Positions 39,936-63,000 of a stretch of 64,000 nt of DNA are shown here, piece after piece. The position numbers and the translations under genes are program-made. The notes under the pieces are model-generated. The model was not told the DNA's origin and did not search any database. It was given only the letters and a program-made list of their open reading frames with translations. The DNA is taken from assembly GCF_019649055.1 (NCBI RefSeq), contig NW_026570235.1, forward strand, positions 1,302,001 to 1,366,000, given 5' to 3'. Origin of the DNA: Paramacrobiotus metropolitanus. Lineage: Eukaryota > Tardigrada > Eutardigrada > Parachela > Macrobiotidae. How positions within the stretch are numbered: position 1 is the stretch's first letter; the number at the start of each line of letters is the position of its first letter.

Positions 39936-39939
39936 ATTC

Positions 39940-40275: not shown

Positions 40276-40337
40276 ACAGCCATGTCGAATCTAAACGCTA
40301 TCAATGACGAAAAAACCTTTTTCCAACGGGAATCCAC

Positions 40338-40673
40338 TTAAACTGACGGCCGCATTGGTTCTCGGCTGGATGGCGTGCCATATCCGGGATCGAACCACCG
40401 ATAATAGAAGAAAACTGCCAGGTAAGATCCCACCAGTGATCCCGCCATAAACCCACCAGCTGCGCCAGCGATGCTTCCTATGGGTCCCGGATAAATAATG
40501 TTCCCTTTAACAGCTCCTGACACAGCTCCCGTCATCATTCCCACAGCAACTCCAGTTTTCGATGCTACTGAAGGTTCTCTGCAGTAACAACCAACCAGGC
40601 CCCCAGTAAATCCACCAAGAATTCCGCCAACCTGCAGTCCCAACAAACTCCCTGCACGCAGTGCAGCGTTCAT
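40338..40673 (-). CDS. Small glycine-zipper membrane protein 1
   Basis: 111 residues in one open frame. I do not recognise a named family. It is dominated by Gly/Ala/Val/Ser with GxxxG-like spacing (GGILGGFTGGLVG near residues 17-29, GMMTGAVSGAVKG near 45-57, GSIAGAAGGFMAGSLVGSYL near 66-85), so two or three tightly packed membrane helices are likely. A charged, Pro-containing tail follows (RWFDPGYG). A TATA-like CCATATAAA lies about 110 bp upstream on the minus strand. The architecture resembles the 145-residue protein encoded at 51740-51207. The start codon is the first in frame; an upstream exon cannot be excluded. Confidence 0.55.
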   Translation of the reverse strand: MNAALRAGSLLGLQVGGILGGFTGGLVGCYCREPSVASKTGVAVGMMTGAVSGAVKGNIIYPGPIGSIAGAAGGFMAGSLVGSYLAVFFYYRWFDPGYGTPSSREPMRPSV

Positions 40674-40859
40674 TCTGAATCAGAAGCTTAAAAACGACGG
40701 CAGCACTTATGAAATACAACAAGAAAATTATGACAACCTGAATCACTAGCACTAGTAATCACTGTATATAAATACGCGTGTTTATATGGTATGCGGGGAG
40801 GCGAAATTATGTTGCATAGAGTCGTGTCGCGTGTGATGATGCGCAAGCGCAATTGACGA

Positions 40860-40945
40860 TCTCGCCAGGATGGCGCCCCGTGGTGGTTGGGAGCCGTACG
40901 CCCACGCTACGCCAGAAGTCATCGTAGGCCCATAGCAACACGTGC
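40860..40945 (-). repeat. 90-bp inverted pair, left member
   Basis: Matches the reverse complement of 52250-52335 with small indels. On the minus strand it reads HVLLWAYDDFWRSVGVRLP and ends at a plausible boundary, so it may be an exon remnant. The two members bracket the mosaic block between the DOCK tails. Confidence 0.65.
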
Positions 40946-41344
40946 TTTTCCTGGCATTGTTTAAACAGCGCGAATTCGCACATTATGCTGCTTACTAATG
41001 CGACAATCACATGAAAATTAATAGAACACTAAGCTCTACCAACTGGGCGACACATGCTTGATAAAAAATTGTAATGTGCCCTGTAAATTGTGCGGCGATG
41101 CCGATGGCCGTGATATTCCAGAACGCCCAACGCGTAACGTGCGACCGTTTTCGCGTGTTACATGGCGCATTTCCCCTTTTGGCGCACTGCGAAATTCCTG
41201 TAGTTAGTGACGTCAAAATGACACACTGCGGCTGTCACTGCCAGTCTGCAGTTCCGGCGAAAATCACGACCCTGCGCAATGGGCAACCATTGCGCCTCGC
41301 GGCGGTTGGCAGGCGGCAGCCAGATAACTACGGGCATACACAAA

Positions 41345-41760
41345 GCCTCTAGGCATACATACACACCGAGCCGTCCTTCGCCACCGCCCAGACACTCTCC
41401 GTTCCCACGGCAATCTGCGTTAGTAAGGATGTGGTTGACGGGGCTTCCACCAGCATCCACGAGACCCCGTACGGCCGATCCCGATTGATGCCGCTGCGCA
41501 TCAACGCCATCCCGTTGGCGGTGACGAGCGGAGGCGAGACTGCAGTTGCGACGGACGATCACCTTGCCGTTGATAGTGACAGCCCATAGGAAGATACTTC
41601 GCGAGCTGTGGGCAGAAGCGTCACATCCTCCAGCGGAAATGTCCATTAAAGCCAGTCTGACATCCGCGAGATCGGTCCTTGTTAAGGGAATCCAGCGGTC
41701 GGTGGTACGGTAACGGCATGTCCGTGGACCGTGTCCAACGGCGACGGCGCATATAGTAAT
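41345..41760 (-). pseudogene. Tectonin (TECPR-like) beta-propeller remnant
   Basis: Two neighbouring minus-strand pieces in different frames look like tectonin repeats. One reads DRWIPLTRTDLADVR, then LMDISAGG and FLWAVTINGKVIVR. The next reads LVTANGMALMRSGINRDRPY, SWMLVEAP and SVWAVAKDGSV and then meets a stop. The pattern W-A-V-x-x-x-G-x-V followed by R-x-G-I-x-R-x-x-P-x-G-x-x-W is typical of tectonin domains in TECPR1-type proteins. The frame break and apparent loss of about 15 residues between the pieces, plus the stop, mark it as broken. Identity rests on motif pattern only. Confidence 0.45.
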
Positions 41761-42131
41761 TCCAACGCTTTTCAGGATAGTACGTAGAGGGAAAGTCAAT
41801 GGCGTATGTCCAACCCTGGGGAAAAAACGCAAGAGTTTTTTTCAGTCACTCTCCTATTTGGCTCCATCCAGTGGCGATTAATACATATTGTGATGATACT
41901 GTTTTTAAAAATTAATTTTGCAAATTTTGTAATTTCTGTCATATTTCCATAACAAAATAATGAATCCACAAAAAACAACGAGCAGTACGATTAAAGAAAT
42001 TTTAACATCGCGACTTAAAACTAACGCTAGGTTTGAGAAAGATAATAGACCATGTGCGTTTGTTACTTTTTTTTTGTAAGGCTATTTTTATTTCACAAAA
42101 TGCGGTAACATCACAGTTTCAGAACAACAGA

Positions 42132-42380
42132 TCAAAAAAACAAAATTTCATTTAATTGTGCCGCTCCCTCCATTGTCCCGAGCACGAAAGCAGCGTTGCC
42201 TCGCTGAATTTCCAGCGACAATCGTTGACGGAGGTACTCATGAGAGCGAGGCTCACCCGTATGTTGTAGAAGCCGCTTGCCAACTTCTTTCACTAAACGG
42301 CTAGCTGACTTTCCCCATGGTCCAAGGGTTTCAAATGCCAGCGGTACGAAGATCTGCAGTTGCCATGCTGGACACCAAGG
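42132..42380 (-). pseudogene. 3' end fragment of a reverse transcriptase-encoding retroelement
   Basis: An 83-codon open stretch, closed by stops on both sides, reads FVPLAFETLGPWGKSASRL, then YLRQRLSLEIQRGNAAFVLG. This resembles the C-terminal end of reverse transcriptase-like proteins common in invertebrate genomes, where a V-A-x-E-T-x-G motif precedes an L-R-Q-R-L-S-x-x-x-Q-R-G-N-A-A motif. The polymerase core is missing, so it is a truncated remnant. Its inner end is about 50 bp from the edge of duplication arm 2. Confidence 0.55.
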
Positions 42381-42429
42381 TCACAGAGGACAGGCAATCT
42401 CGTGGCATCAGTGCCACTGCACTACGCCA

Positions 42430-43138
42430 CCAGAAACAGACGCGTCTGCAAGTGTTGCTGCTGTGGTTCTGGACAACGAAGTCGTACTACCAACACCGCC
42501 AACGAAACCTAGGAAACCATCCCCGCGAAAGCCGAAACCGGCTCCCCCACCGAGTGAACCACCTGTGGATACTGCTCCTTCGCCTCCTGTTAGTCAGTCG
42601 CCGGCTAAGGAATTTGCCATGGGTTTAATGGGACAAAACCACATGAACAGTCCACCGCGTCCACCCCCACCATCGACGTTTATGCAAAAACGAATCAGCT
42701 GCTTCCCCCGACCCGTCCCGTTCTAGCGCATCCAGCCTTCAGCTTGATCCCTCCACTACCTCATCATCTGATCTCATCGAGTGGCATGTCCAGTCCCGTG
42801 ACGTCACCCATCATCTCCCCGCCCCGCTCATCGACGCCCACCGCGTTGCGGCTGCCTTCCATCAGTGATCTGGTGCCCAAAGCGACGTCACCCCCGCTCC
42901 ATAGTCCGATTATGGAGACACTTTCGCCGCTGACCTCTCCCAAGAGTTCTCCCACCCGTCCGCGCCCGATGGTGCGTTCGCCGGTGATGGTCCGCAGCTA
43001 CGAACCGGCGCCGACCAATCCGCACACGCCGCACATAATGCGGGCGCCCCCGATGCGGAGCTTTGCCCCCATGATGGACAGTGGACAGCCGTGCAACAGG
43101 AGAGTATGGTGTCCAATCCAACGAGTACATCGGCATAA
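42430..43138 (+). pseudogene. Decayed copy of the MCRS1 C-terminal exon
   Basis: Corresponds to the Pro-rich end of MCRS1 from PPETDASASVAAVVLDNE through the stop codon, without the FHA or MCRS domains. A run of As at about 42686 is two bases longer than in the parent and shifts the frame. About 250 bp before the final segment (CNRRVWCPIQ in the shifted frame) is deleted. Many of the differences visible in the aligned protein change residues, for example R to G before LMGQNHMNS and M to K before EFAM. No upstream exon is present. Confidence 0.85.
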
Positions 43139-46100
43139 ATTTCATGTTGTGTGGAATTTGTTGCTGAGTAGTTTTCACCATATTGTTGATTGTTTTGTTG
43201 GCGACTATGTTTGTAGAGCACCCTGATGCAGTTGATGGATGCTAACGAAAATATTTATTTTTGTGTTAGGTTTTTGAATTATTTCACAATTCGGAACAAG
43301 CTTCTTCTTTGCCGTGATAGTTTTTTGAGTTGTTTAATAATCACGCTGTGGAGAAATTTTTGGTTACCAAAGAGAGTGCTTTGATTGCACTTTGCAGTTT
43401 TGTTTCTGTATTCGTTTTAATACAACAGTTGGAAGGACCGACTATATGTCGATCCTATCATCCTACTCTACAATATATAGAGTACGTTCTTACAGTACTT
43501 CGAGCAGCGACTGTTGCCGGAATGTTCATTTCTCAAGCCATTGTTGAAACAGGAAATCACGTTGTAAATCACTTCGTCCAACCTCTTACCAATACAGAAC
43601 GTTTCCTGTACACATGCAGCATTGCCTCGCATTAAAGCAATACTACATAATTTTCTGCTTCAAGAACTGACCAGTGAGTGGACCGCTTTTCTTGTGTCCG
43701 CTCAAAAAGCATTCTACCGAGCGAAAACATCTTACAATTGGATTCCTTAATTACCCCATGCAGTATGCACCCATTATTTCAAAAACCAGAGCAGAAAAAT
43801 TGAAATTTTCACGTAAAAATCCGTGCTTCTGGTTCTTCTTTGCTTCAGCCATGGTGGCGGCGGCGCCTGCCTCTTCGGACGTCCTCGCGATATAGGTAAT
43901 GGCCATACTATCCGGGCAAGTGACATCCCAAACCCAAGACCTTCCGTGGCTGAAGGGAACAGAGGTGGTGCCGTCCGGCCTTTTGTTGCCTTGTAGACAT
44001 GGTATCAGAATTACTTGAATAGGTTATGTAGCTTGATAACTTTATATGTACTGTACTCTCTGACATGAATGGGGGCTTGTGTCGGCGCTGTGAAACTTGT
44101 TCTTTTGTGCTTACATTTGTACATTCACTGCACTGCACTGTTGGTGGCAGAATGGCACATAAACATGTTGTTTGCCAATGGATGGTTACTGTGGATGGAT
44201 GGTTATGGATGGTTACCCACACTCTGACACAGATACAAACGCTGCCCTCTCTTAGCTCCTCCCAGTACCGACCGGCGTGCTGACCGGCATGGGTAATGTG
44301 CGTTTGTGAGGGTGGTGGTGGTCCCGTTTTTACTTTTAATTATACTCTCCGGCTTGTGGAATTAAATCTATACGGTAGCTTGATCGATTGGCCTGTGGGA
44401 AAGTGTGTTACAGCACCGCGTCCACTGCGCCTCTTATACGTATAATTATACACTCCAGTTGAATTAATCCGCACCCTCTTGAAACGCAGCCTCTTATCCC
44501 GATATTTGTCGGGCCTCCACGCGCGGGTACATTTTTTATTGCCACATTATAAGGTCACTTGGATAAAGTTTGCTCATCAAGTGGATAGTGGTTTAAGAAG
44601 GAGTTAAATGAAAAGTTGACTGCTTGAACATGGGTGTGGGGCCTTTTTTTATCCGTGGGTGTAATTACTGTACTCTATATTGATCTTGTCCCGGCTAATG
44701 GGGCGTTTGATCGGATATCGCTAGTGTGCGTACATCCGCTCTTTTTTACCGTGTCGTTGCGCATAAAGAAAACGATGTTTTGACTTCGCGATGTGAGCGA
44801 AATTTGCCGGATTTTCAATTTTTTCCTGGATGGCAGTTATATGCGGAGAAATGTAAGAAGGGGAAACTTTATCCGGGTTATACGACCTTTACACAACCGA
44901 CGTGTTTCGGTTATGTAAGTCACATAAAGACATCGAGGTTTTTGTTCCGTTACATATGAAATGAGGCTGAGATGCTTGTTTGCATTTCTCTTCATGCCGA
45001 ATGATCCTTGTCGATCTTGCACTTTCGACAAAAGCTTAATACGCTCGGTAGAAAGCGTGCTGATTCGCTATATCGACTGGGCCATTATTTGTAGTAACTA
45101 GTAAATCTTATAATACAATTCCAATGGATATTGAATAAGTAAATAACCTCGGAGTTTTCCAGCGGAAATTTGCCCCGCTGGATTCACATTTTTTTCTACG
45201 CGGCTTTCTTTACTTTTACTGAATGTACTGAAGTCCATACTTAGTATATGAATGTACATGTGTGCCTTGAACCATTCAACGAGTTCGAAAACATTGGAGT
45301 ATTTCTACTGTCGAATTATTTAATAGATAATTCTGTGTAACAATCATGATCCCGCATGTTTGTATCGGAGCGGAATTGCTTTAAACAGTAGCATGCAGCA
45401 GCAGCAGAATTAGCAGCAAATTAGCAGCGGAATTGCTTTAAACGTGGAACAGACGTATCTAATTTGTTGTAGCATCTGCATATCTCTTGAATACATCATA
45501 GCGTCTTAATTTGCCTGGCAGTGTCCAAACGTTTATGGCGGTGTAGTTATTCTTATCGTATATCTACAGATGACCTTTAATGCCTGCACATTTACCGGAA
45601 CTGGAATACTTCTATGTTTTTTTGTCGTTTGACTGACAAATGATTTTTCCCGTTAGTCAAGCGCATATTGATAACATCAGTATATTAACGATCGTTTCCC
45701 AGGGAAACTGAATGACGGCGCAGGAAAATGGCGTTTTAGTGCCCGGTTTGCAGGTTGAAGTGCGCATACAACCTTGGGGTCCGCCGCAATGCCGGTTACG
45801 CACCAACATTGTCATTGTGCAAGTAGGCATGATGCGCAGCCTGGGTACATTATGAGGGAGAAAGAAAAAAAGTAGCATTTTCCCGGCCGATGATCCTGCA
45901 CTGTGAGTTATAATATACGAATACAAAGTGCGTAATGGGATTTTGAATTCCTGCTCATTGAGACGTCTGGGGTTGCCTTAATGTGCAGTGAAAAGATGTT
46001 GTAATGAGAACGAAGTGCGTGGTTACAGAAAGGCATAATTAATCCCCGCGCCGGAAAAGGGCCGTTGTATGTGCCATCCTGTGTCGACGGCTGAACAGCC

Positions 46101-47620
46101 TTGTGTGGGATGGCATTAGTGAGCTCTATGGTTAAGATATAGCTTAAGATTGGAAAAAACGTGTAAAATTAGAAGAAGATTCCGAGCTGCCGTTTGGGAG
46201 ATCGTAAACGGTGTTTACATTTACGCCCTGCTGTTCACTGAATTAACGCAGTCGTGTATTGTGATTACACTGGACGGAGCGTAAATGCCTCATTACTACG
46301 GTTTTGAGTTACGTTGTCCACAGCAGTCCTGTAAAAACTATCCGCTGTTTAAAAATGGTTGTAAATTTTAACGAACATAATTTCCATTTGATTTTGTTTT
46401 CCGTTTGGGAAAACAAAATATAAATAACAAAACATATAGTTTCATTAAAATTAGATAACTACATGTATGATCGCAAAAATTGCAGTAGCAACACCCAACA
46501 AAAGTGAAAAACAAATAATCCAACAAAAGTGGAAAAATCTGTTTTCAATAAAAGTAAATTAATATAAAGTAAATCAATAAATCAAGACACTTTAACTGTT
46601 TTTCGGTTTTCGGCAAGACGTTTGCATCTCGTTAAAAACCAGTCACGCTGCCTGTCAGCAGTGTCGTTTGTCGTTTAAATGTTCTTTCATTAGTCTTTCG
46701 TCGAGCGATTTCGTTAAAAAATACAGAGCAGAGATGAAAATAACCCACGTGTATAATACAGTATTTGGCGTTTACCCGGAGTTTGCGGTTACGCGTGTTT
46801 GTTTGTTATGCCCTTTATGTTGGCATACATTTCCCTCCGTCTGCTGCTGTCGTTCGCCTCTAAAAAGGATATAGAATTATTTACGACGTGGAAAATTATA
46901 GAAAGCAATTTGTCATCCCAGCGGTTAATATAAATAACAGGATGTTTCAGCCGGTCGGTCGGTATACGAATGTTTCCCTACATAGGGAAACCCTGGGAAA
47001 TTTCGCCTCCACTGTACGTCATAGCAGCAGTGATATTTAACTAACAAACGATATCCTGCGCGCCTACCAAGTGATTACAGTATGAATAAGTGCGGGCTTG
47101 CGGGATATTGGCAGATGGGACACAAACAGTTACCAATACTGTACTCCTCTCCCTGTAATATATTACCTAATATGCATCGGCTGCCGCTGATTGTATGTAT
47201 TGTGTGCAACCGGTTTTAATGGCGTTTCGGATGCATGCACTGTAATGGTCACCATGCAGGATGGTTTTCTGTTAACGTTGTAATGCCAAACAGTGTGGAA
47301 GATGCGATGCGATTTCCTTTTTGATACAATTAAAATTCTAACCCTGTAGCGAGGTTGCATTAACGTGGGCAAATTAACGGAAGTTAGTGGTATTCTTACG
47401 CTAACATTTGCTTTTAACAGGATCTTCTTTTCTACCCGCTGTTGTACACTCATATATACGATGGTCATCTCAATTTAATAGAACTGACTTGCGAGCAGGC
47501 GCTCACACCGTTAACGGTAGTCATTTCAATCAACTTAAAATTACAAAACGGCCAAACTTAGACGCTATGATTACTTAATTACACGATTCTTTTTTCATAA
47601 TAAAAACATTCGCAATTAAT
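42430..47620 (-). repeat. Large inverted duplication, arm 2
   Basis: Reverse-complement copy of 5268-11213, starting inside the MCRS1 last exon and running about 5 kb past its stop. It carries a two-base insertion at about 42686, a deletion of about 250 bp at about 43090, and a non-homologous block at about 43555-43985. Apart from the MCRS1 remnant I see no gene in it. Frames conserved between the arms show as many amino-acid-changing as silent differences. Confidence 0.88.
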
Positions 47621-48035
47621 AATTATTACCTTAGCAGTTAGCACTATACACAGTTACACACCAATAACATATTCCCACAATGTTTAAGGATAACACCACT
47701 GAGAAAACTAGCAAAACTTCATTTCAGGTATTGCAAGACGAAGTCGTGCAACCGATATGGCTTATGGCAAGGAATAGGAAAATAGCGAATTTCCCATTAA
47801 AACATCTCCCAAAATAAAATGCATACTTCAAGTCTACGCTAAAACTGAAAAATGGATGGATTGCAAATCTTTTAAAATAAAAGCGGTAAAAGATTCGGTT
47901 CGGCAATGCTGCAAAACGACAAGTAAACATTGCTATCACAAAACTGACCAATCTATCAGACAACAGAAATAAAATATGTCATGTTATCAAAATCGCTAAG
48001 AGGCATGTCCTGGTTCCAAGTTGACCTGCTAATTT
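47621..48035. other. Short spacer after arm 2
   Basis: About 400 bp between the end of arm 2 and the stop codon of the glutamine synthetase-like gene. It must contain the 3' untranslated region of that minus-strand gene. No other feature seen. Confidence 0.5.
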
Positions 48036-50997
48036 CTATTCCACAGTCTGATCCAGGCAAGTAGTGCGCACGGTAATTTCCTTTGCAGAGTAAGGGTCAC
48101 AATTGGATGCCGGTCGACGATCTTCCAGATAACCGTGCCCATCTTCGGCAACCTGACGCGGAATTCGGATGCTAAAAAAAAGACATCGGTTAGTCGCAAG
48201 GAACTTTAGCCAGTTTAAATACCACTCAATCAACTGCAAAGAAATAAATGCAAATACAATGAAAAATCTCGTTTTAGATGTTACATGCAACGAAAACTTG
48301 TTGCGTTATCCATAAATTTCGTAGCCGGACTATCTAACAATACTGTACCTGCATCCTCTGTTGGCTACACCCGCGGAAAAGTCATGGATGCTGGACGTTT
48401 CATGACGTCCAGTCAAGCGACGCTGATTGTCCTGGCCTCCTTTAGGGTCATAATTGCGAATGTGATTAGCGTGGACTTTACCCAACTTTTCAATGGCATC
48501 TTCAATGGCCTGCAAGCTTTTTCCTGGAGTTCTCATGGCTTTCGTGCTAAAACTCATTTCTCCACCGGCGACATTCCAGTCGCCCCTGGCCAGTGTTGGG
48601 CTGAAGGAAACTAAAACTCCGAAATCTTCCGCCACTCGGTGCAACAGGTATCGAGAAATCCACAATTGATCTCCCTACAGACATCGATTCATCCCTGTAT
48701 TTTCAACGCCGTATTGATTTTGTGTACTGAAAGCGAACAACTTACTACTGCAGAAATGCCTTCACAAGGCCCAATACGGAATTTCCACTGAGCCGGCATT
48801 GGTCCAGCACTAGCGAAGTGGATTTTAATTCCTGAATATAAACAGGCCCGATAATGCGCTTCACTAATATCGCGCGCATAAATCGCGTCTGCCCCTAACC
48901 CGCAATAATGCGGTCCTAAAAACAATGAAAATTTCAGTGCTACTGAGTACTGAGTATGCTTCATGCAGCACTTGCTAAAATATATTTCTTTAATTTTTTT
49001 TATCCTTCTACAAATTATATACTTCTGCAGCTTTGCTGCTAGTATACTCGTACCAAGTGATCCCGCCAATCCAGTTTTCGGGCTGACAAGTGGACGGCGG
49101 TCCACATCCAACAGCGAGTATTCTTGCTCAATTTCAAACCAGGGCTCAAAATCTTTAGCTTGAGTCATCACATCGGCACAAGCTCTGCGCTTATTGCTTT
49201 CTGTAAAAAATAACAAGCTTGTAATTTCCGGCTAATTAATTGTTTGTAACAGTTTTACAATCAAGCATCTAGTACTAACCACTGCAGTACGTATAAACAT
49301 TTGCGCACGGAAACATCTAGGTCCAGTCTGTAGGCTTATCATCACGAAATACAACACATGCGCCAATTCAGTTTACTTACAAGAAGCAGTACCGGCAATA
49401 CACTGTATCGTTAGCCAAACAAAGCCGCTTTGACTCTGTTTAACATCCTGCAGGTATTTTCATTACACACAATATTTTATTCTTTAGCGCAAACGGCTCT
49501 GTTGGGTCCAACGTCTAAAGTTTACCTGTTGGCTTTTTGTTGTAATTGTACGTTTCGCACAGCACGAGCTTGTTCTTGCCACCGGTGAATGGATCCGGGT
49601 ACAATGCTACAGGGTGTAAATAGACGTCGCTGTTGCTTCCTTCGGCCTGGTAGGTATGCCAACCGTCGTAGTTCCAGATGGGAAGATCTACAACGTTAAG
49701 ATTACAACGTAAGATTACAAGTCCCCCAAAACACCGCACCGGCACCAGCTCACCACGGTAGCTGGCTGGCTGTAATAATGAGCACATAAGATACAAATTT
49801 GTACCTATCTAAAACTGACGCCCAGTTTTGCACGTTCATTAGGTATTTAACGATGCGGCTGCAACTATTCGACAATACTTCAAAAAGTGCAAAATGTATG
49901 ATTTACTGTACTGAACTAAGGTAAAAGGCAATGTACACTGTTCGGTATGAGATCAATCAACAGAACTGCTGAATCACAAGGGCTACGAAATTGCAGACAA
50001 TTCTATTAAATTGTATTCTATTAATAATTTATTGAGAGCGAGTATCACAGGCATTTCCCGCAAACATCCATTAGTTGCATGCCAGCATTTGCCGCATCTT
50101 CTCTACCCCAGTGTAACGTAGTGTACATGAAAATCCTTCTACAGAATAATGAACTTCCTGTTATAACCTGCAATGCTTTCCGGAAAATGCACCAGAACCA
50201 GTGAAACTTTCAGAAACCATGAAAAGTCATTTCTGAAAATTCCGAAAAACCGCGCCGAACGGCTGTGAATCGTGATATGCTGTATGGCTATACAACCAAT
50301 ATGCGGTAACGAAATCATTTTATCGAAAGTGATGTACGCGCATACTTGAATATCCCTTTTAAAATTATCTGAGTATTTTATATTCCTTTTAAAATTACGA
50401 TCACTATCTCCACATCTAACTTGTAATTAATATAATAGGTGAATGGAATTTCAAATATTCAACCCGTATAAAAACGAATGTTGATTTGCTCTGATGGTTT
50501 AAATACGCTGTACTGTATATGGTGCAAAATTAACCGAATAACCATCGATCAGCTGTTTGTACCACATGCAGCCAAACGGCAGTTTGTAACACGTGCAGTG
50601 CAGTTGGTCCAATTTTAAACCTTGATATTTCCATCTTTGCTGTATTTGAACCATTTTCAACGACCTTTCACTGTTTCAGTTTCCATTCGACTTCCAACTT
50701 TATAATTATTACACTACCTTCTGGGCTTTTGGGCTCTGAGTCCAGCGTCCTGGATTTACACCGAAGATTTTCATGGGTCCCGTCGATCCATATGTAACAT
50801 GCCGTAACTTTGTCTTGTTGGGGTAAAGACCGGTAAAACCCGCGTCTCAAGGAGATGTTATTGTCAATAAAAGACCGGTCTGTAGACAGCGAAAACGTCA
50901 CCAGCACGAAATAATAATCGATCGGGCTTTTCTGATGTCACAAAGACAGTTAAATTAACAGTATTTCAATATTTCTGATAACTTACACTTTAGCCAT
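48036..50997 (-). CDS. Glutamine synthetase-like protein lacking metal ligands (probable pseudoenzyme)
   Basis: A type II glutamine synthetase relative. Exons: 50997-50989 (short start exon, inferred), 50931-50718, 49687-49526, 49200-49054, 48915-48746, 48674-48349, 48171-48036, giving 387 residues (human enzyme 373). Beta-grasp motifs are clear ([31 protein letters not shown]), as are [50 protein letters not shown] and [14 protein letters not shown]. Glu153 and Glu155 match human metal ligands Glu134 and Glu136, but positions matching Glu196, Glu203 and His253 are Gly215, Lys222 and Glu273. Reading frame and splice sites are intact. Established: those residues bind the catalytic Mn/Mg ions. 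Inference: this protein cannot make glutamine normally. The donor at 48746 may instead be 48749. The first exon fits in phase but has a weaker donor. Confidence 0.85.
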
Positions 50998-51206
50998 ATG
51001 ACCGCACATTCCGGACACTGCTCAGACAGAAGTTCTCGAGAAAACTTCTTTTGTGGTTCATGAAATATCAACGGCTGCCGCTTGAGTGATTGAGTAATCA
51101 ATTTCAAATGCATTTAAAATGCTTCTTACAAGCCATGCTAAGAGGCGAACTACTGTAGCAGAGTGTCCGGAATAGGCGCTCGTATAGCCAGTGTCCCGGT
51201 ATAATA

Positions 51207-51740
51207 TTAGAAACGTTGAAGTGCCAATTTCGACGGAAACAGGATCTTACGTTTGTTTTGAGGCTGGAGGATGTGGTATTGCTCCAGAGCAGGCCCGAAT
51301 ACGAGCGCCGCTAGGAAGGCGAATACCGCACCTTTTACCCCTGAAATTCCCAGAGTTGTCGCATTGGCTCGGCTAAGGGAGACACCTGTAAGGACGCCCG
51401 TAGCAATCCCCGTTGCCATCCCACAGGGAATGGCCACCAAACCGCCGCCGATCAGCTCTTTCTTGGGATGCTCGCTGTGGAGATAAAATGCACCTCCAAC
51501 AGCGCAGCCACAGAGCGTTCCGGTTAAATTAATGATATCCAAAATCTTATACTTTGTATCTACAGCCGACAGGCCTCTAAAAAATCGGAAAAAAATGCGA
51601 TTCGTTGGATCCGAAATGCACATCATCTAACGTTTAACATTTTATCTCTTCCCGATAGCGGATAATGCTCACCTAGTGTTCCACTTCGGAATTCCTTGCA
51701 CTGAACCCAGTCGGATAAATTTCTTCATTGCCTGAATCAT
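51207..51740 (-). CDS. Small glycine-zipper membrane protein 2
   Basis: Two exons, 51740-51673 and 51576-51207, with phase-2 closure, give 145 residues starting MIQAMKKFIRLGSVQG. No known family recognised. Hydrophobic Gly/Ala-rich segments (GTLCGCAVGGAFYL near residues 39-52, GGGLVAIPCGMATGIATGVL near 63-82, GISGVKGAVFAFLAALVFG near 95-113) suggest three membrane helices with GxxxG packing. A basic tail follows (QNKRKILFPSKLALQRF). It lies 210 bp upstream of the glutamine synthetase-like gene in the same orientation. Sequence upstream of the start (51741-51950) is also open and may be a 5' untranslated exon. It resembles the protein at 40673-40338 in composition, but I could not align them convincingly. 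Confidence 0.6.
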
Positions 51741-52439
51741 GTTGAATCCACAAGCGTGATATTGTCGTGAGTAAAGAACTGATCAGAATGCGAGAAGTGC
51801 TGCGCATCACCGTGGATCCAAGAGTGCGGAAATCCGGGAATCGGCTATCCAATTTTCGAGTCGTATCCTGCCCTATCCCATGAGTCGTCAACGGAGTGCC
51901 GCGAGCCAAGACTGAAAACAAACTCGGAGCAATTTCACCTCGGTCAACCTAAACGCATCGTGATTAAGTCAATGAAAGCTTGCACTATTGTCAAATAACT
52001 ATAAAATTATATTATAATTAAAAGCAATTTTAATACAAACACCGAGAACGAAAATTAAATCCGGTGGTGCAATACCGTGGCCATAGCACTGGCGCTAAAT
52101 TTAAGAATACTGTAAAATTAATATTTTATCACATATTTTTTTCTCGTTTGCAGGGGATGGTTTTCTGTCAATTTTCATGTATCTGCCCAGTTAACAAACA
52201 GCATACTTTGCGAGCGCGCGCTATTTAAAAAGTGCCGGGATAAGCACTTGTTGTTATGGACCTACAATGACTTCCCGGCGCACCTTAGGTGCACGGCTCC
52301 CAACCGCCACAGGGCACCATCCTGGTAAGAATACTAGTAGTCAATTCTGTTTCTTAATTCTTCAAGCTGCTTGAAAAATCTGCGATGTAGTTACTCTGTA
52401 GTTACTGTAGTAGTGTATGAAGTTGAGGACTCTGGGACT
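51741..52439. other. Spacer before DOCK tail copy B
   Basis: Contains probable 5' sequence of the minus-strand glycine-zipper gene, AT-rich DNA, and the right member of a short inverted pair (52250-52335). No intact gene. Confidence 0.5.
52250..52335 (+). repeat. 90-bp inverted pair, right member
   Basis: Inverted match of 40860-40945. The plus strand reads HLLLWTYNDF and then drifts out of the partner's frame. It ends at CCTG|GTAAGA, a donor-like site, so it may be an old exon edge. Confidence 0.6.
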
Positions 52440-54100
52440 ATCTATTCATTTCGCTAGACTTTATGATGGGAATACGTGTTGAAATAGTTTTGTTTGTGAA
52501 AACTGTTTTACGTGGATTACGAACGAAGTCTCGGTGAAACCTTTGATATTTTTTTATACAGATAGAACGGATGGCTGGAAAGCGAATGTTCGGGACGTAC
52601 TTCCGTGTAGGCTTTTATGGACCGAAATTTGGTGATTTGGACGGTGAAGAATTTATCTATAAAGAACCGGTCATCACAAAGCTACCGGAAGTCTCCAGTC
52701 GCCTGGAATCATTTTATTCGGAAAAGTACGGCGCTGAATATGTCGACATCATTAAAGATTCCAATGCCGTCAAACGGGAACTGTTGGATCCGGAGAAGGT
52801 GTACATACAGATTACTTATGTGGAGCCGCATTTCGATAAATGGGAACTGCGCAATCGCGAAACGTTCTTCCAAAAGAACTACAATCTCCGTCGATTCGTG
52901 TACTCTACACCGTTTACCATGGATGGCCGGGCTCATGGCGATTTACATGAACAGTATAAGCGGAAAACGATTGTTACGACCGCTAATGTAGCTTCGTAGC
53001 CGGTAAATATTTTTCCCTTTACACAAAAGCATACATGTACTTACATGCAGCGTTTTGCGCATTGGAAATTTGATATTTAGGCTGGGTGATATTTAATTAT
53101 TGAAATTGCTGTTATGAATAAAGTTTCTTCGTCTTTGTTGTGATTTCCGGTTGTTTTGGTCACTAAATAACTTCGATATTTTTCTTGCCTAGGCTTTTCC
53201 GTACGTGAAAACGCGAATTCAAGTTATCGCAAGGGAGCAGTCGGTTCTGACGCCGATCGAGTTAGCGATCGAAGATATTCAGAAGAAAACGGAAGAACTA
53301 CATGCGGCCATTAAGCAGGAACCTTCGGATGCCAAAATGTTGCAAATGGTTTTGCAGGTTAGATTTGCTGGTGTTAACTTGGAATGCTGCTAAGACTTGA
53401 GCTGCATCTGCAATTCGTAGGGCTGCATTGGAACAACGGTTAATCAAGGTCCTTTGGAAGTAGCCGCAGTTTTCTTGTCGCATCCACATGACCAACCAAT
53501 GACGGCCCTACAGCATAAACTGCGTTTGTGCTTCAAAGATTTTTCCAGACGGTACGAACAAAGAATGGCGACGGCTTTTCTTGTGTATACGGCTTTTCTT
53601 GTTTTGCGTTTTCAGCAGTTTTGGTAGTTGCTGCGATTTAAAGTCTGTTCTTGATTTGTTTTGTAGGTGTGCGGAAGCTCTGAAATTAAACAAAACCCTT
53701 ATCGCGGCTGATCAGAAAGAATACCAACGGGAATTAGAAAAGAATTATCAGCGCTTCCATGATTCCATCAAACCAATGTTGCAGTACAATGCCGAAATGC
53801 TGGCTGCCGATGAACTGGAAAATTCCAACTTGAATTCGACTTGTTAATCTCTTTTGTTTTTTCTTTGTTTATAGATGTTCTCTACGTAAGAATCTGATTG
53901 CACTTGTTACTTATGCACAACGGTAATGTTTGAACTATTGTCGGGAATCTCGATTTGACATCTTGCAGTCTCCAAATTGTTGATAATGTGGTTCAGTTTA
54001 TTTTTTGTTTGTTAACAGTCTTGTGATTCGGTTCCAGTTTAAATTTTTTGTGGGTGTTTAAACTCACTACAGCGGGAAATGAGTAAATCTGAAGAAGGTC
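52440..54100 (+). repeat. Direct repeat of the DOCK 3' end, copy B
   Basis: Homologous to 38160-39935 in the same orientation, about 14.3 kb downstream. It includes intron sequence before the first exon and part of the 3' flank. Introns have diverged by indels (for example 115 versus 192 bases before the last exon). Confidence 0.93.
52562..53847 (+). CDS. Second copy of the last four DOCK exons
   Basis: Exons 52562-52987, 53193-53357, 53421-53551 and 53667-53847 encode 300 residues identical to the C-terminal 300 of the DOCK gene, i.e. the catalytic half of DHR-2. All GT-AG sites are intact. Comparing 903 coding bases I count 18 differences, all silent. No upstream DOCK exons accompany the copy, so it can only be expressed as alternative terminal exons of the upstream gene, from its own promoter (ATG at 52571, [12 protein letters not shown]), or not at all. 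A haplotype joined in by assembly is the main non-biological alternative. Confidence 0.8.
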
Positions 54101-54732
54101 ATCTGGTGCACGAATAACATTTACTTAATTCAATACGATGAAAAAATTAATAAATTTTTCGTATTACTCGTACAATTCCTCGTACAGAAATTAATATCTG
54201 TGCTTGGGAGAGTAAAATAAATTTCTGGGAAACCGTCAGCACGTGGCTTGAACATCCTCTATAGTACAGACCGGGAATTTAATTGCATGCCTAATTTCAG
54301 GAATGAACGTCATTTTGTTATGCTTTCCAGTCTGCGGTTCCATAAAGAACGCCTAGACGGTTTTAAATCGCAAGTTTTATGATTCCGTATATTTCCCAAT
54401 TCGATTTACGCTTCCCTTATTTTTGATTCTGTATTTTTTCCATTACACTGCTTTTTTATCTCATAACGGCATACTTAATTACAGTTGTGCTTTCTGGAGA
54501 CATGTTCAGTTTAAACGACTAGTGGGAAGACTCATGTCGCGTTTGTTGGATTAGGACACACCTACTTGGACAAATATCTATATACAGTTCTTTTGATCAT
54601 GTACAACACGTGCGAACATCAGACTGTATTCAAATTTCAAATACCGTGAGCAAACGGTAATCTGTAGCACTGATAAAATATGAGAACAAAGAAACATTAT
54701 CGAAATCAACAATAATCTGGAAAACACTCCAA
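53848..54732. other. Convergent intergenic region
   Basis: Lies between the stop codons of the second DOCK tail (plus) and NELFCD (minus). It must hold both 3' untranslated regions. Nothing else recognised. Confidence 0.5.
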
Positions 54733-57295
54733 CTACGTTGAAGCTTTGCAATCCTGTAAAAACACAGAAATACTATCTTTCCCATCGGCCGTACGTAGTG
54801 TTCCCGTAATATCTTTATCCGAGACAAGAGGCAACAGCAACTGCATTAACTCATCTGAATAAGGCGGCGCCATAATATCAACCAGCTCCACAACAAAATG
54901 TCGAAATAGCGAAACATCGGTATCTTGTTTGGCGTAGGCGGCACGCACAAATCTGAGCACAGGTAGTACACATCCACAACTGACCAAATGGATCATCCGA
55001 TCCAGAAACATTTTCTGTAATTCGAGGCGGATGAGCATGTCCATCTGCGGCCAGGCGGTTTCAAACAATTCCATTAGCAGATCCAAGATTTTCTCGTGGA
55101 GATAGGGATGCAGGCTTGCAATCTCATCGAGTATAATCAAGTGCACCGGTGTATTACGGGATTCACCGGCAAATTTAAAATAACTGGCCTGCTTCACCGT
55201 TTTCCCAATCCAGCGAATCATTCCCATGGAGATAACGGGAAAGCGCAGAACCGTAAAAATATTCTGCAGTTCCGTGTGGATATCATTCGGGCCTTTGGCG
55301 ATGAATTCCAAGGCTTTGCGGATCATTTCCTGTGTGACTTTCACATCGTCGCGATTGATCTCCAGTCGCATGGGAATCGGAGATTTCTTACTGGGTGTTG
55401 TCCATTTTTCCACAACGGACGCGGCGTAAGCCAGCAACGATATATAACGGATGCGGTGATCCGAAGGTATCTTGGATTCCAAACTGAAGAGACTTTCCAC
55501 TAACAAATCAAGAAAGTCCCGGAAGCGTAGCAAAGCCACCTGAAACAACCAACAAAATCAAGGAAACCATTACTGAAACGATTTTACGGTATAATTTTTC
55601 TTCGACTGTAATCCGTGGAAGCGCGAACTTGCCTGGCAAAAAGCGTGTAACCGGTCAAATCGGTCAAAGCAGATGTTTTTAAATAAAAAGGAGTACTAGC
55701 GAGGTATAATTTATCGCTACTTCAACAAATTATTCTTTTGCTAATTCATCTATCAAAAGTCTTCATTCGAAGCACAGAAAAAAAGATGTACTACAGTTTT
55801 TACCGGAGGTGGGCCCAGAGAATCCGCGGGATTGGCGATAATGTACATCTGATGTAGAATGTGAATGTCTGCCGGATTCAGGCTCTTCTTGGACGACATG
55901 GAAGCGACGGCTTGCATAGCACGCGGCCAGGCCGCACCACGGGCAATAATGAGGAGAATGTGGAGGATGTGTTGATTTTTCACACTGTCACTGACATCCT
56001 GCATGATCCTCATTAGATTCAATCCACCCGGCGCCTCGTATGCGAGACTGTACATCACCAACTGGGCGACGAGGAATGTGGATTCACCGTTCGCCACCAG
56101 ACGCGCGAAGTCCAGCAGAGCGTTCTCCTGCCGGTCAATCAGTCGGCCCATGGCTGAGTCGAAGACGCGTGTGAAAACATCCGTCTGACTGACAGCCGTG
56201 ATGGTCGTGGGGATTTCGTTCTGATGTCCTTAAAAATACCGAAAAAACGAAATGAGTACCGGTACACGCACAAAAGTTCAGCCGGATAAAAATTTTGGAA
56301 TAAAACGTATATATAAACGTTATATACGTTCGTAAAATATAGGTATACGTTTAATTATTTTGAGCAATAACAGTAACCGAAGCTAGTAAAGATTAAATAT
56401 GTATTCAGTAAACCAAAAGCGTAACAAAGAGGAGTAAGTATACGACGCAGATTTCTACAATAGAAAAGAAAAGAGAAAATCACAATTTGCGCAACAATAG
56501 AATCGGGTGGTAAAAGCACACAAAACAAATTATTATAAGACAGATTTTTGAGTACGAATATACAAAAATCAATTTTCTTTCTTTTGCAGCGCAAAAAATG
56601 CGTACTGCACATTGCATGTTTTTTGCACACATTTAAAACTGAGCGTAATTTTTTATGATGTAGTCATTTTGATTTAAAACAACTGCGCCGAGAGAAAATT
56701 GTGCGACAGTTTTACCAGCATCAGCAATCAATTTGATGGTAAAATTCAGCATCAACGATTCTCCATGGGTTTCCACCAATTTATAGATCATTTTCCGCCA
56801 GTGTTTATGCTGAATTAGATCATTTAACCAATGTGTATTGCCGCCTTCCTGCAGGAAAATCCGATCGGCTTTGCGCGGATCAAAACTGCTCACCAGGATA
56901 TTTTCCATGTAGTTCTCAATTAGTTCCTTCACTTTCGTCGGCTCATCGCCCAGAATGATCAGCCACTCGGCGAACAGATTCACATACTGCGCCAGTCCTT
57001 CGTAGGACGTCGACAGTGCTTCGATCGCTGAGGCCGCATCACCATCCGATGCAAAATACCGATTCAGGAACTCCATCAACGACGGCTCCATAATGAAATC
57101 CATGGTACGGAATTTGCTTAAGCAGAAATCACGGATTTCGGCGGCGGGTGCGGATGTGGAGAACTCCAGACTGGTGTGATCGAGTGACGACGGTTCATCC
57201 GCGTCGTCGTCCATGTCGTGATCAGCTGCATCGTCGTGCACGTCGCCGTCGTCTTCGGCGAAATACTCCGGATCATTCTCATCGTCCCTGTCCAT
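54733..57295 (-). CDS. NELFCD: Negative elongation factor C/D (TH1)
   Basis: A core subunit of the NELF complex, which holds RNA polymerase II in promoter-proximal pause. Three exons, 57295-56716, 56228-55804 and 55539-54733, with phases 1 and 0, give 603 residues (human about 590). An acidic N-terminus (DDGDVHDDAADHDMDDDADE) precedes the conserved helical body: MEPSLMEFLNRYF, VNLFAEWLIILGDEPTKV, SSFDPRKADRIFLQEGG, LMLNFTIKLIADAG, then SLNPADIHILHQMY and the PPPVALLRFRDFLDLLVESL junction across intron 2. The C-terminal third contains SRNTPVHLIILDEIASLHPY. I chose the Met before DRDDEND. Residues encoded just upstream (to 57373) are open but unlike the family and are preceded by an acceptor-like site. 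Confidence 0.95.
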
Positions 57296-57727
57296 TCCGC
57301 AGTTCCACTGACTATAGTACAGGAAAATCGTACACAGAGCTGCCAAAAACTGAAGGCATGCGCGATGATACACGGGGATCCCAGATATGGTAGAAAATCA
57401 CTTTGGCCAGTCGAACTTTATTTAATGCTTTCTTAATAGTTAATGGACAGTGCCGCAATGGCCAAATACAATGCAGCATACTAAGTGAAAGTGTAATAAA
57501 AACCGTAAAGTTCGCTCAGAGATTGTACACAATGTACAGTAGCACAAAAAACAAATAAATTTCTAGTTTTCCTAGTGATTTTTTGTAGTCACAGGCTCAC
57601 AGCCCGTTGTTAGCCAGACAGTACAGACATAATAGATTGTGTTCGCTACACACGAACGATAGACGGTCCGGTATACGGTGACAATATAACAATTGCAGCT
57701 CTGCGGAAAAATGTCTTTCTTCATGAT
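57296..57727. promoter_or_regulatory. Head-to-head intergenic region of NELFCD and the 57728 gene
   Basis: Two starts diverge across about 430 bp, so the promoters probably overlap. On the plus strand a six-codon upstream frame beginning at about 57711 (MSFFMI) ends in an ATGA just before the proposed start of the next gene. I see no convincing TATA element. Confidence 0.35.
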
Positions 57728-58680
57728 ATGACGCTACCAGCGCGCGCAGTGTCGAATCAAGGGAAAACTCAACTTATGATGATTGATCGTCAGAAGAAAA
57801 AAGCCCGATGCGAATCGCACATCTTGGAATTGTATATGGCCATCTGCCGAACCGAAAAGATACATTTTGTGAGCAAGTTGTCTACATAATCACCATAATC
57901 ATTGCAAATAAATACTTACTAACCGCATAGTCCGTAGTATATCAGTTTAAGAACACTAATAATACAAAGCCGTACTGGCAGACACCGGCGTAATCCTAAT
58001 TAAGTGATGTAATTTATAAACGCGTTAGTATATGTATTGCATTAACAAAAAATCATGTAATTTTTTCACAGATGCCCGACGCATGGGCTGTGCAGTATAT
58101 ATTGCACAAATTCGCCCAGCCAGAATGCTGTCGTATTCAGCAACAATCGGCGATAGTGTTGGACGGCATTTCTATTGGATGTGTACCGAGGAAACTACCA
58201 GAGAGATTAGAGAAGAATGAGGATAAGAAGAAAAAATTTATAAAGCTGATGCTAGACAGTCAACACTTCTACCAGAGTCAAGATGCTCCACAGAATGCCG
58301 ATTCTGTGGATGCTGATCCTGGGGATGATTCTGCTGATCCTGATTCAGAATCAGATTCTGATTCTGCTGATGCTGAATCTGATCAAGCTAGTATAATATC
58401 GGGTATTTGTTATGTCGCGGTACATGGGCCATCCAGGATGGCGATTGCCGACGTAAGTGCAATTTTAATTATTCTTATAAAATAATAATTATTATTTGGA
58501 TGGTTGTTTGTATTACAGATCGTTTTCACAGACGATTGGGATCCTGATTTGCAGAAAAAATGTCGAGAATTACTTCATAACGAGGGTGTGGACAAACGCG
58601 TACAAGTGCACTTTACCGGAGAGCGTGGATTTCATGAGACCACATTGGGAAGGAACGATCTGTTGTCACAAAAGCACTAG
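57728..58680 (+). CDS. Unrecognised protein with acidic Ser/Asp/Ala tract
   Basis: Proposed exons 57728-57868, 58072-58452 and 58519-58680, all phase 0, encode 227 residues. I recognise no family. The N-terminal part is basic then helical (IDRQKKKARCESHILELYMA). The middle has WAVQYILHKFAQPECC and a Lys-rich patch. Residues around 120-150 are a low-complexity acidic run built from Asp, Ser, Ala, Glu and Pro. The last exon reads IVFTDDWDPDLQKKCRELLH and then ends. Splice sites are good (GAC|GTAAGT; TATTACAG). The first exon is supported only by phase and openness; a start at 58072 is the alternative. It could be the 5' part of a longer gene with the next locus. Confidence 0.5.
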
Positions 58681-59042
58681 GATATCGAAGAAACCGAGAC
58701 TATAACCTATCAGTATGTAAAACTGGAACTGTATGATGGTGTATATACTTATTATTAAGACACTATTCCGACAGTAATGAATATGAATAATTATGTAGAT
58801 ATAGCCTGATTATCAAGGTTTCTGTAATGTCGCGTGGTAAAATGCGCCGCCGTATCTGTATTAATTTCGAGTCCAGATAGTACTAATATATATGCGCATG
58901 GCATCGCATAAAATGTTAAATTAGTACTGAATAATAGAATATTACGCCATAGTTAATAACCAAATCACATTTTCTGGAATGATGATGGTGATTTGCTTTG
59001 AGTGTGAAAGAAAATCATCTGTCGACCGAAGGTCACAAGAAG

Positions 59043-60024
59043 ATGGCACCGATTATTATATGTGACCGAACATCGAAGATTCCCGACAACAAACATTGTT
59101 CTGTGGAGGCAAAAGATTTGGCGCGACTGTACGGCGATGAAACTGGCGATGAATTACTACAGCTGGATATCCGTAAAGCCTGTCGAACATTGTCGGTTAT
59201 CGAGACTGTATATGGGCTTAGTGTGTATATCGATGCGTCGTTAGTCACAGCTATGAAACGATACGAACTGCGGATAAGGGGTGCACGCCATGCGAATATT
59301 TTCACTTTTGTCCGTGATATTATCGTCCCGGCCTTCAAGGTATGTAGTAGATCATTTTAGTTTGTTTCCTATTAGATGTTAACTATTTATGTAATATCTA
59401 TCATATATAAATGGCTCAATAAACAATAAACTGTTGTAGAATTTCGTGACCTTTAATGCCGAACTGGTGCAGCATTTGATGTTGGGAACAGCTCAGCACA
59501 AGGATCTTTCGACCACCGATCACGTTAACTACACTGATCATAAACAGCAATGCAGGCGTGAAAAGGTGGGAAAAGATGAGCCCCAGTCAACGGTTCCTAA
59601 GGAAAGTGTTGCATCGTTACCGTTTTTTGTTCCTTACGTCGAGGCTGATCCCCGCGGAATCATGCCAGCATTGCTGCCATCAACAGCCGTTGATGCCGTA
59701 GTGCAGCCTATTAAAGATCGTGCTGCCCTTGCGACGACTGTTGTGGATGTTGAAGTGCATACCAACCAGCTTTCACCGCCATCAGTGAATGTACATCTAC
59801 CTAGTGTCCCGTTGGTGCTTAATCAGGAAGTTCAAACCAACGTTGTTCATACTGTCAGCCGAGCCAGTTCACCAATAGCGGACACAGCTATGATCGATGG
59901 CAGCGAGGCTGTTCTTCCGCCGACCGTATCTGCACCAACCAGGAAACGAAAACACCGTAGCGGCCAGGGAAAGAGTAGTTTGTCACCTGCGACATCTTCT
60001 TCTTCACATACGGTACCTTCGTGA
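59043..60024 (+). CDS. Unrecognised protein, folded N-terminus and disordered C-terminus
   Basis: Two exons, 59043-59339 and 59440-60024 (phase 0), encode 293 residues. The first about 115 residues look globular and helical (VEAKDLARLYGDETGDELLQ; ACRTLSVIETVYGLSVYIDA; ANIFTFVRDIIVPAFKNFV). A weak resemblance in layout to BEN-type DNA-binding domains is possible but I cannot support it. The rest is Pro/Ser/Val-rich and ends in a basic patch (TRKRKHRSGQGKSS) like a nuclear localisation signal. The ATG at 59043 is chosen because an in-frame stop lies shortly upstream. Function unknown; a nuclear role is a guess from the basic tail. Confidence 0.55.
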
Positions 60025-63000
60025 AAAGCTAGTCGTGCATCAACTGGCCTATCGACTGCATCGTCGGGATCAAGTGCCGATCGTAGTGAAATTGGAGCCG
60101 GTCATCCTCCTCAGTCAAACCAGCCACTATTCCGAAAGCCTTTATGTATGATGCGACCGATTGTCGACGGTCTGGCCATCAGTCGACCAACATCCTCTTC
60201 TTCCGTTAACAATGCTGATTCGAAATCTGGCCATCCATAAAATCCTCACACGACTCCGAAATGAGGTACCCTTAGGTAAATTGGCATTTTTACAATCATC
60301 TATTAGCATTATATTGTTGGTAATGATAAGACTCACTGAGCATAATTAGAAGAACTAATTTGTATACATGAGTATGTTTATGCGCATTTTTGAAACAATT
60401 ACGTACATTGCGTCTGTGTATGATGCGACATGGTGATGCAGTCATTTATTTTTACAGGGCATAGGAAATGGACGTGTGCACATATCATGGTATCGAGAAG
60501 GAGAGAAGTTGTTTTTTTCTTATTATGCTGTTGCGGTGAGAGTTATTGGTTTACATGTGTTATGCCCCAATAATGGGATTGTTTTTCTACGTGTTTATTT
60601 TATTTATGTATTAAATTACTTGTACTATAAAAAATTTTTGTATTATCAGTTTATTTATATACAGTACATTGTTTTCTTGGACACTAGTGGCAGCGGATTA
60701 TTTGGACTTTAAATATTCATCTTTTCCATGCGGGAACTGAATAGATAATGTTTTATTATCATAAAAAAAGGTACCATCGTATAATTCGTATTACTGTATG
60801 TTCGTTAAATCAGTACTAGACAACTAGTCGTAAATTGAATGACAAAGAATGAGGCCCGTCCGAGTATAAATGTATAATATACGTATATATACCGGGAAAC
60901 GTATTTTATTCACAGCAGCGTTTATAATAACAAACTAGTGCATGCTGGTTGCAAATCCGATAACAAAGAATTCAATTTAATAAGAAACTAACATGTCAAC
61001 ACAGGTTAACATTATTTGGAACAATATTAGTTACATACGCAGCCGGTAATCATCATGCACGCCTTTGTTTACCGGTAACGTTTTCAAAGGGGTCACAGTC
61101 ACCACTGGTGCACTAATCCGGCTTGTCGAATTGGTCTGCTGTTGTGTGTCAATCGTTGAGTACTGTACTGTATTAATCCGGAACCATTTGCTTTTGCTGT
61201 ATTTCGTCACATTTTTAAATGCTGCGATCAGTTTTGCTAATTTTCCATATAATCAATTCCACGTTGATTATAGTAGTTTTTATTTCCGTTATACTAAGAT
61301 ACTGGAATTTTGGGTGAAACGTACAGTTGCCGGTCATGCTTTGTAATTTTTCCATATTCCACCCAGATACCAATCGCTCTGATTCCCCACCTGCTGCTTA
61401 TAAAGCACCAAACGTCTCACAAGCCAACGGAACAAAATAACAATGATCAACAAAAGACTCATATTTCTTGTTCTTGTCCCCAAACGCTTGTTCGTCTCCT
61501 GCGCCATCCAAGATGCTTTACATACTCATAAGATGGCGCACGGCGCGATCAGCGGAAGTTTCGCGTTGGCGTGCCTTCTGGGTTTCCATAGTAGGAACCG
61601 CCTCATCGATGCCACGGCGGCCCACGTGTAGTGTACGCTTATTGTATCGTGAATGTATGGCCCACCTGTAATGTACGCTTATTGTATTGTATTGTGGCGG
61701 CTGTGCCCACAGCTTCCAGGTCCGGTTCTACAATTCCCACAGCCGCTAGCATTTGAGTATCCGGAGTCGCCTGTACTCAACAGAAACACTCATTGCCATT
61801 GGTCAGAGTTCAATGCATGCAGGTTTATCGGAAACTTTTTTTCAAGTCATCATTGTCATCATTATTATACGACACGATGGGACACCGTACCGTAACCACA
61901 TCGTCTGTAATTGTGAGTGTTCGCACTCATCCCTGCTTACAAACAGTAAACGATGTACGGTCTAATCTTGCCTCGAAGCGAAACGCTGCAAGTTTTAGCC
62001 AGCCTCGGTGCATCTGTGTTTGCTAAACTGCATTTAGTTGTAAATCCAATGAAAATTAAAATTCTATATTATATTTTGATACAAAAAGCTAAATTTAGGC
62101 CCCAATAAGTGTTTCTATGAGCATCTGAAATTAACACAGGCGTCTACGCAGTATGGGTGAAGAGCTCGCGCCGAGTACTTCGACTGCTCCGTAAGCTTTT
62201 CATAGTAAATTGAATTAGCTGAAGAATCTTTTGTTTGTGGACAAACTGCTCTTACTTAGTATCAAAAAACTTCTCTTTCTTCTCCGAATTTTCTCTTTCT
62301 TCTGATTTACTCGGCCTGCCAATCAACAATTGACCAATTCACATATTAAACCACGTGGTAAGCTAGTCACGTGGTTTCAGAAATGCTGCAGCAGTCTGTA
62401 CAATCTACACCTGCTGGACGATATTAGGCAAACAAACCACGTGACAATCGACCAATAGAATGCTAGTCCGTCCTATATGTGAATTGGTCAATTGTTTAAA
62501 CTTACTGTAGCAGCTCGAAAGTTACGGGATTTGGCAACTGCAGCCGTTCTAATCGACGCAACTGCCGCCGAGAGCGGTTGCTATTTCGCAGCACTCAACG
62601 GTATGCTTGACGATATCTAAGCTTTCAACCGTCAATCCTATCGTCAAACGGTCCGATAAGAGTACGCCGTGATGACGTGCAAGAGCCTATCGTATACGTA
62701 CCGTATATCGTAAGCCTTTTTGTGCTTGCGAACACAATCTAATATGACGTGGTATAAGTTTGCTGTAGCGTAGTGGCAGCAGTAACAACAATCGCCAGCT
62801 CATGTAACACACGTCCCGCACGGGCTGTCTATCGTTTCTCGTTACATGTCGAATGATTCCTTAAATAAATCATTGTCCGAAGTTTATGACATTGTTCTAC
62901 TGCGATATTTTAGTATATGCGTACCAAATACCCTTTGTTCGTGTAAATGGAAGCACAGTTTACGGGTCTGGAGTACGAGTGTGAGGATCTTTCGCGTTTA

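Follow-up and report, generated by a model that had tools for sequence, protein, structure and literature searches.

The 3′ end of a DOCK gene is present twice in the 64,000-nucleotide stretch of tardigrade DNA analysed here (C15:1302001-1366000; hereafter the window), and both copies encode the same protein. This raises the questions of whether the second copy is a real duplication, what has kept its protein unchanged and what it may do. We refer to the copy that ends the DOCK gene as A and to the one downstream as B. The window has a GC content of 42.5% and contains no N. For the published assembly of Paramacrobiotus sp. TYO (P. metropolitanus), a GC content of 43.46% and almost no N are reported (PMC8277472). 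A literature search for tardigrade together with dedicator of cytokinesis found no paper.

The gene ending in copy A was modelled from 30365 to 39683 on the forward strand. The model had 16 exons, GT-AG introns throughout (15 introns of 62-567 bp, median 151), one terminal stop and a product of 2061 amino acids. Exons 1 to 12 (30365-37956), identified as DOCK-C (DOCK6/7/8-type) from the model, Pfam and a single-copy search, precede the duplicated tail. The Pfam domains followed the order shared by DOCK-C GEFs (DOCK6, DOCK7, DOCK8; Zir): an N-terminal DOCK_C-D_N domain (PF11878, E 6.5e-26), a C2/DHR-1 domain (DOCK-C2, PF14429, E 2.4e-41, profile positions 3-149 of 187) and DHR-2 lobes A (PF06920, E 1e-23, profile positions 1-75 of 154, from a scan of one exon region), B (PF20422, E 8.1e-28) and C (PF20421, E 5.2e-32). 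Compared with solved structures, the tail scored 420 bits against DOCK7, 399 against DOCK8 and 390 against DOCK6, versus 248 for DOCK10, 231 for DOCK9 and 32 for DOCK2, and a stretch in exon 7 matched DOCK6 only (E 1.9e-58). The closest solved relatives of copy A's gene are thus DOCK6/7/8, and not DOCK9-11 or DOCK1-5. Residues 7-280 of the 300-residue tail aligned with the DOCK7 chain 6aj4 (290 residues, E 4.4e-125) and with the DOCK8 chain 3vhl (288 residues). Tail residue 200, encoded by exon 15, is isoleucine in both copies where DOCK7 has valine (QGSVGTTVNQ). A lobe C valine is described in a review as a universally conserved nucleotide sensor (PMC8063744), and we do not assume that residue 200 is its equivalent.

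Copy A comprises exons 13 to 16 (38302-38727, 38953-39117, 39180-39310 and 39503-39683) and encodes DHR-2 lobes B and C. Copy B aligned with it as four exons on the same strand (52562-52987, 53193-53357, 53421-53551 and 53667-53847). The coding length was 903 nt in each copy, and the translations were identical at 300 of 300 residues. Eighteen coding positions differed (12 transitions and 6 transversions; 6, 1, 8 and 3 in exons 13, 14, 15 and 16), and our recount agreed with the original prediction that none of them replaces an amino acid. The introns had drifted, as it also stated, with differences at 94 of the 485 positions compared (splice-site neighbours left out) in addition to indels. 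The duplicated blocks delimited by self-BLAST were wider than the exons, running from the last 144 bp of intron 12 to the 3′ flank in copy A (38158-39935) and from 52438 to 54099 in copy B. That copy B lacks upstream DOCK exons was likewise borne out at the DNA level: no DOCK match was found in 39936-52437, 32539-38150 was single-copy, and comparing 39900-52500 with the window at low stringency gave no DOCK match before 52438. Copy B contains DHR-2 lobes B and C only and fails as a full DOCK protein, with the N-terminal, C2 and lobe A exons absent upstream in the DNA comparison. The tail protein had eight exon matches in the genome (169.8 Mb, 533 contigs), four per copy and all in the window, and no third tail copy was detected by this search.

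Silent divergence (dS) between the copies was 0.098 overall and 0.068, 0.028, 0.314 and 0.091 in exons 13 to 16. It had been argued that unconstrained copies should show about three quarters replacement changes. This fits random changes, 28% of which are expected to be silent (kappa 4), but the proper null is one in which A is constrained and only B is free, and there 44% of the observed changes are expected to be silent (kappa 4). Under this null, taking mutation as uniform with a kappa of 4 and the pairwise A/B changes as unpolarised (no outgroup), the probability of 18 silent changes out of 18 was 3.8e-7. The corresponding values were 5.3e-5 for the 12 differences of exons 14-16 and 1.4e-3 for the 8 differences of exon 15. 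The 95% upper limit of omega was 0.072 for both copies, and 0.143 for B alone if A is given zero. The earlier proposal of purifying selection on both copies is therefore well supported by the coding comparison, and copy B has probably been kept as a working protein and not as junk. A copy B that had always been an unconstrained pseudogene was ruled out by the first of these tests. Gene conversion alone would not explain the pattern either, because differences that arise in a free copy after an exchange should still be mostly replacements.

Conversion had been suggested as an exon-biased alternative to selection. Neutral divergence between the copies alternated over six stretches (0.207, 0.051, 0.230, 0.050, 0.245 and 0.037), the borders of which were set after inspection of the data. 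The low stretches were exon 13 (38302-38727; 6 differences at 117.7 effective neutral sites), the 3′ half of intron 13 with exon 14 (38838-39117; 8 at 159.3) and exon 16 with the 3′ flank (39503-39935; 11 at 297.2). Intron 14, exon 15 and intron 15 together made up a high stretch (39118-39502; 50 at 203.7), and silent divergence in exon 15 (dS about 0.31) was intron-like. The 3′ half of intron 13 and the 3′ flank were nearly as similar as the low-divergence exons; in the flank, 11 of 252 positions differed as far as 39940, or 8 of 250 as far as 39935. Since low stretches include intron and flank and the high one includes all of exon 15, this is not a plain contrast of exons with introns. Silent exon sites nevertheless differed less often than one common rate would give (18 differences at 253.8 effective sites, 31.9 expected, P = 0.0024). 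dS was heterogeneous among exons (Monte Carlo P = 0.0097), and the longest run free of differences (39656-39760, the end of exon 16 and flank) exceeded chance (P = 0.001, 2000 permutations).

Patches of low divergence thus lie beside patches of high divergence at neutral sites, as in concerted evolution, with constraint possible on some of them. This suggests patchy ectopic gene conversion upon an older partial duplication. The best fit would be patchy conversion at the DNA level, acting on a duplication old enough to have reached 21-25% divergence at neutral sites. Of the exon-biased conversion originally predicted, the conversion finds support as an addition to selection; the exon bias is not strict, because exon 15 escaped. 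Conversion via cDNA would affect exons only; it was ruled out because exon 15 had not been homogenised and because divergence is low in the 3′ flank and in part of intron 13. The mosaic could in part be due to constraint on UTR or splicing signals, or to imperfect alignment of the introns. By eye, intron 15 of copy A contains a perfect 17-bp inverted repeat with a 7-base loop (39408-39448) that is absent from copy B.

All of this presupposes that the two copies are not alleles of one gene that the assembly has placed in tandem. We consider a misplaced allele unlikely, the least probable of the explanations weighed here, because the DOCK body and the downstream flank are single-copy and the flanks of the two blocks are unrelated. 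If the gene is constrained, silent differences alone would likewise be expected in the coding sequence of two alleles, and a misjoin is possible even though the window has no N. The probable source assembly is described as built so as to keep heterozygous variants and as merged afterwards by HaploMerger2 (PMC8277472), and the strain as having much individual variability, with several scaffolds of inconsistent coverage (PMC11191345). However, a whole allele stitched into the contig should bring homologous flanks, and the sequence on either side of the two blocks was unrelated by self-BLAST and low-stringency comparison. A DOCK query that excluded exons 1 and 2 (32539-38150) had a single match in the genome, itself, and the flank at 54100-60100 matched itself and otherwise only a repeat, at 13 places of at most 48 bp. 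Intron divergence above 20%, as in the high stretches, would be extreme for alleles. The 12.5 kb between the blocks, moreover, includes an old duplicate (81% identity) of sequence elsewhere on this contig. The BUSCO copy number is reported as 1.05 (PMC8277472), and the ONT N50 as about 17 kb (PMC11191345), just above the 15.9 kb that span both blocks. Duplication of the whole 14 kb unit was also rejected, as 39.9-52.5 kb recurs in the 54.1-64.0 kb part of the window only as the last 36 bases of the block.

The sequence between the copies (39936-52437) was a mosaic. It contained 5272-11207 copied in inverted orientation, three or more dispersed repeats, and a segment of 3.2 kb (47655-50829) with 81% identity to C15:1504899-1508125, which lies some 155 kb farther along this contig. 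In the inverted duplication, 5272-11207 pairs with 47620-42427, the inner ends being about 31 kb apart. Its five longest aligned pieces were 87.6-92.9% identical by self-BLAST. Mismatches amounted to 2.5-8.8% in 20 of 35 bins of 200 columns, with the other 15 higher or barely aligned, and to 17.2% over all aligned columns. A 1077-bp probe from this duplication had two copies in the genome, both in the window. The right arm sits between the DOCK tails. A single template switch might therefore account for the inverted duplication and that of the tail together, which we offer as an idea only. The dispersed repeats lay at 40850-41269, 42083-42353 and 52062-52332. The first and last of these are related, have opposite orientations and sit just inside the two DOCK tails; 40850-41269 had at least 40 matches in the genome, itself included, and 52062-52332 was found at no fewer than 38 places. 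They are possible agents of rearrangement. Three relatives of 41527-42005 were found on the same contig. Two small glycine-rich ORFs on the reverse strand (40341-40679 and 51210-51626), putative genes at most, are antisense and each close to one of the DOCK tails; the latter had no Pfam match. A scan of the window against Rfam gave no family at the gathering score. Convergent with copy B is a TH1 (NELF-C/D) gene on the reverse strand (54736-57373), in which 56636-57373 matched PF04858 (E 5.2e-50) and the ORF 54736-55557 is assumed to be the 3′ part. Because B, and not A, has the TH1 gene as its downstream neighbour, the 3′ flank of B may be the ancestral one.

The reading that we prefer, with a probability of roughly 0.55, is a genuine partial duplication with both copies translated and selected, occasional conversion between them, and copy B acting either as its own gene or as alternative ends of the DOCK gene. 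Copy B would be a fairly old partial duplicate of the DOCK-C 3′ end, lying some 12.5 kb beyond the original tail. Strong purifying selection would act on both copies, each of them translated, and ectopic gene conversion would at times have copied stretches between them. Both roles proposed for B were open in frame upon translation, and we lean slightly towards a separate short gene and away from alternative terminal exons, because splicing exon 12 to B needs an intron of 14,605 bp where the longest in the gene has 567. As its own short gene, which we propose with less confidence, B could start at an in-frame ATG nine bases past the old acceptor (52571) and encode 297 residues. The product would then be a free exchange module made of lobes B and C alone, lacking lobe A, the dimerising one. 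Neither a promoter nor a first exon was found for copy B. Spliced-leader trans-splicing onto the acceptor of B was dropped as a candidate; among the papers listed in a literature search on it, none had tardigrade in its title. More tentatively, copy B may be a free-standing gene for a minimal DOCK exchange module, kept identical to its parent by selection and patchy conversion, in which case the animal would make two proteins with identical catalytic residues, one a dimeric DOCK under regulation and the other a short, constitutive monomer. The predicted product corresponds in extent to the DOCK7 and DOCK8 crystal constructs, which are without lobe A (PMC8063744). DOCK2 DHR-2 is reported to retain Rac exchange in vitro when lobe A is removed, but DOCK2 lacking this lobe is reported to rescue neither Rac activation nor migration in cells (PMC3458822). 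On its own, the lobe B+C module may therefore have little effect.

The other role within the preferred reading, alternative terminal exons, is possible but tentative. Exon 12 would be spliced to either 38302 or 52562, yielding the same protein from transcripts that differ in 3′ UTR and poly(A) site. The phase-0 end of exon 12 can be joined to B to give the identical 2061-residue protein, the acceptor AG of both tails is intact, and the model requires the protein to be unchanged. AATAAA occurs at 54149 and 54216 downstream of B (53848-54730) and is absent from the shorter stretch downstream of A (39684-40320), although in AT-rich DNA this is near chance expectation. Against this role, the intron would be 26 times as long as the gene's longest and would cross the inverted duplication and the putative antisense ORFs, and the strongest donor after exon 13 in B leads to a stop. 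That donor (CCG|GTAAAT, 53003-53008) is a strong cryptic 5′ splice site found in B only, 15 nt past the regular exon 13 donor. Its PWM score of 8.42, against 1.71 for the regular donor, was above 12 of the 16 reference donors, with 4 of 16 as high or higher. Its use would bring in an in-frame TAG after ...TTANVAS, ending the protein after lobe B, and the site counts against both proposed roles of B. These scores are indicative, because the PWM rests on 16 introns of the window.

The same site raises the alternative that copy B was coding for a long time and that a 1-bp deletion together with the donor at 53003 now gives truncated or decayed transcripts, making B a poison tail or a recent pseudogene. 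The deletion has turned the exon 13 donor from GTATGC in A into GTAGCT in B. A G at -1 or +5 is present in every one of the 16 reference donors and, at +5, in A's donor, whereas B's has neither, and it is the cryptic donor of B that scores high. On the other hand, the regular donor scored no worse in B than in A (0.86), both falling below all 16 reference donors in a PWM drawn from so few introns. That the deletion has clearly weakened B's donor was thus not upheld, the evidence being divided. Exons 14-16 also have 12 silent differences out of 12, which is hardly compatible with a B that was always free, and any loss of function would therefore be recent. We think this alternative doubtful.

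Partial duplication with selection and conversion, as preferred here, has several counterparts. In Caenorhabditis elegans, fog-2 and ftr-1 are described as adjacent partial duplicates with about 28% overall synonymous divergence and repeated short-tract conversion (PMC3966223), and the DOCK tails resemble them as a partial duplicate pair with a patchy conversion pattern. Unlike fog-2, which gained a new terminal region and a hermaphrodite role, copy B is the terminal part alone, with no amino acid changed. Its low stretches of 280-433 bp are longer than the tracts of 39-145 bp listed for fog-2/ftr-1; the same source gives 12-2,958 bp over 7,829 C. elegans pairs and notes, as a review, that tracts can extend into introns (PMC3966223). 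Dscam also has duplicated, alternatively spliced exons (PMC3236188). As there, the DOCK tails are duplicated exons of one gene between which exchange is possible, but the Dscam tandem duplicates diversify the protein, whereas the DOCK tails leave it unchanged and are spaced 14 kb apart. Probably in the same species, the Paramacrobiotus metropolitanus paralogues PmDmrt3090 and PmDmrt3093 are reported to be very similar over residues 30-180 with completely different introns; nanopore reads spanned each, and no single read both (PMC11191345). They share with the DOCK tails similar coding sequence and diverged introns, and differ from the partial copy B in being complete genes. Unlike the DOCK-C GEFs, copy B is without everything before lobe B and in this matches truncated crystal constructs. 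We know of no natural DOCK protein that begins at lobe B.

The explanation is mostly ordinary: partial duplication, purifying selection and patchy conversion. Duplicate pairs with conversion are a known kind of event, of which this locus is a good example. It lends itself well to telling purifying selection apart from ectopic gene conversion within a single 1.7 kb duplicate, since the older divergence has survived in exon 15 and its introns but not in the neighbouring stretches. The unusual part would be expression of the predicted free lobe B+C module. If copy B is expressed, it would be a natural test of how lobes B and C of DOCK act when lobe A is missing.
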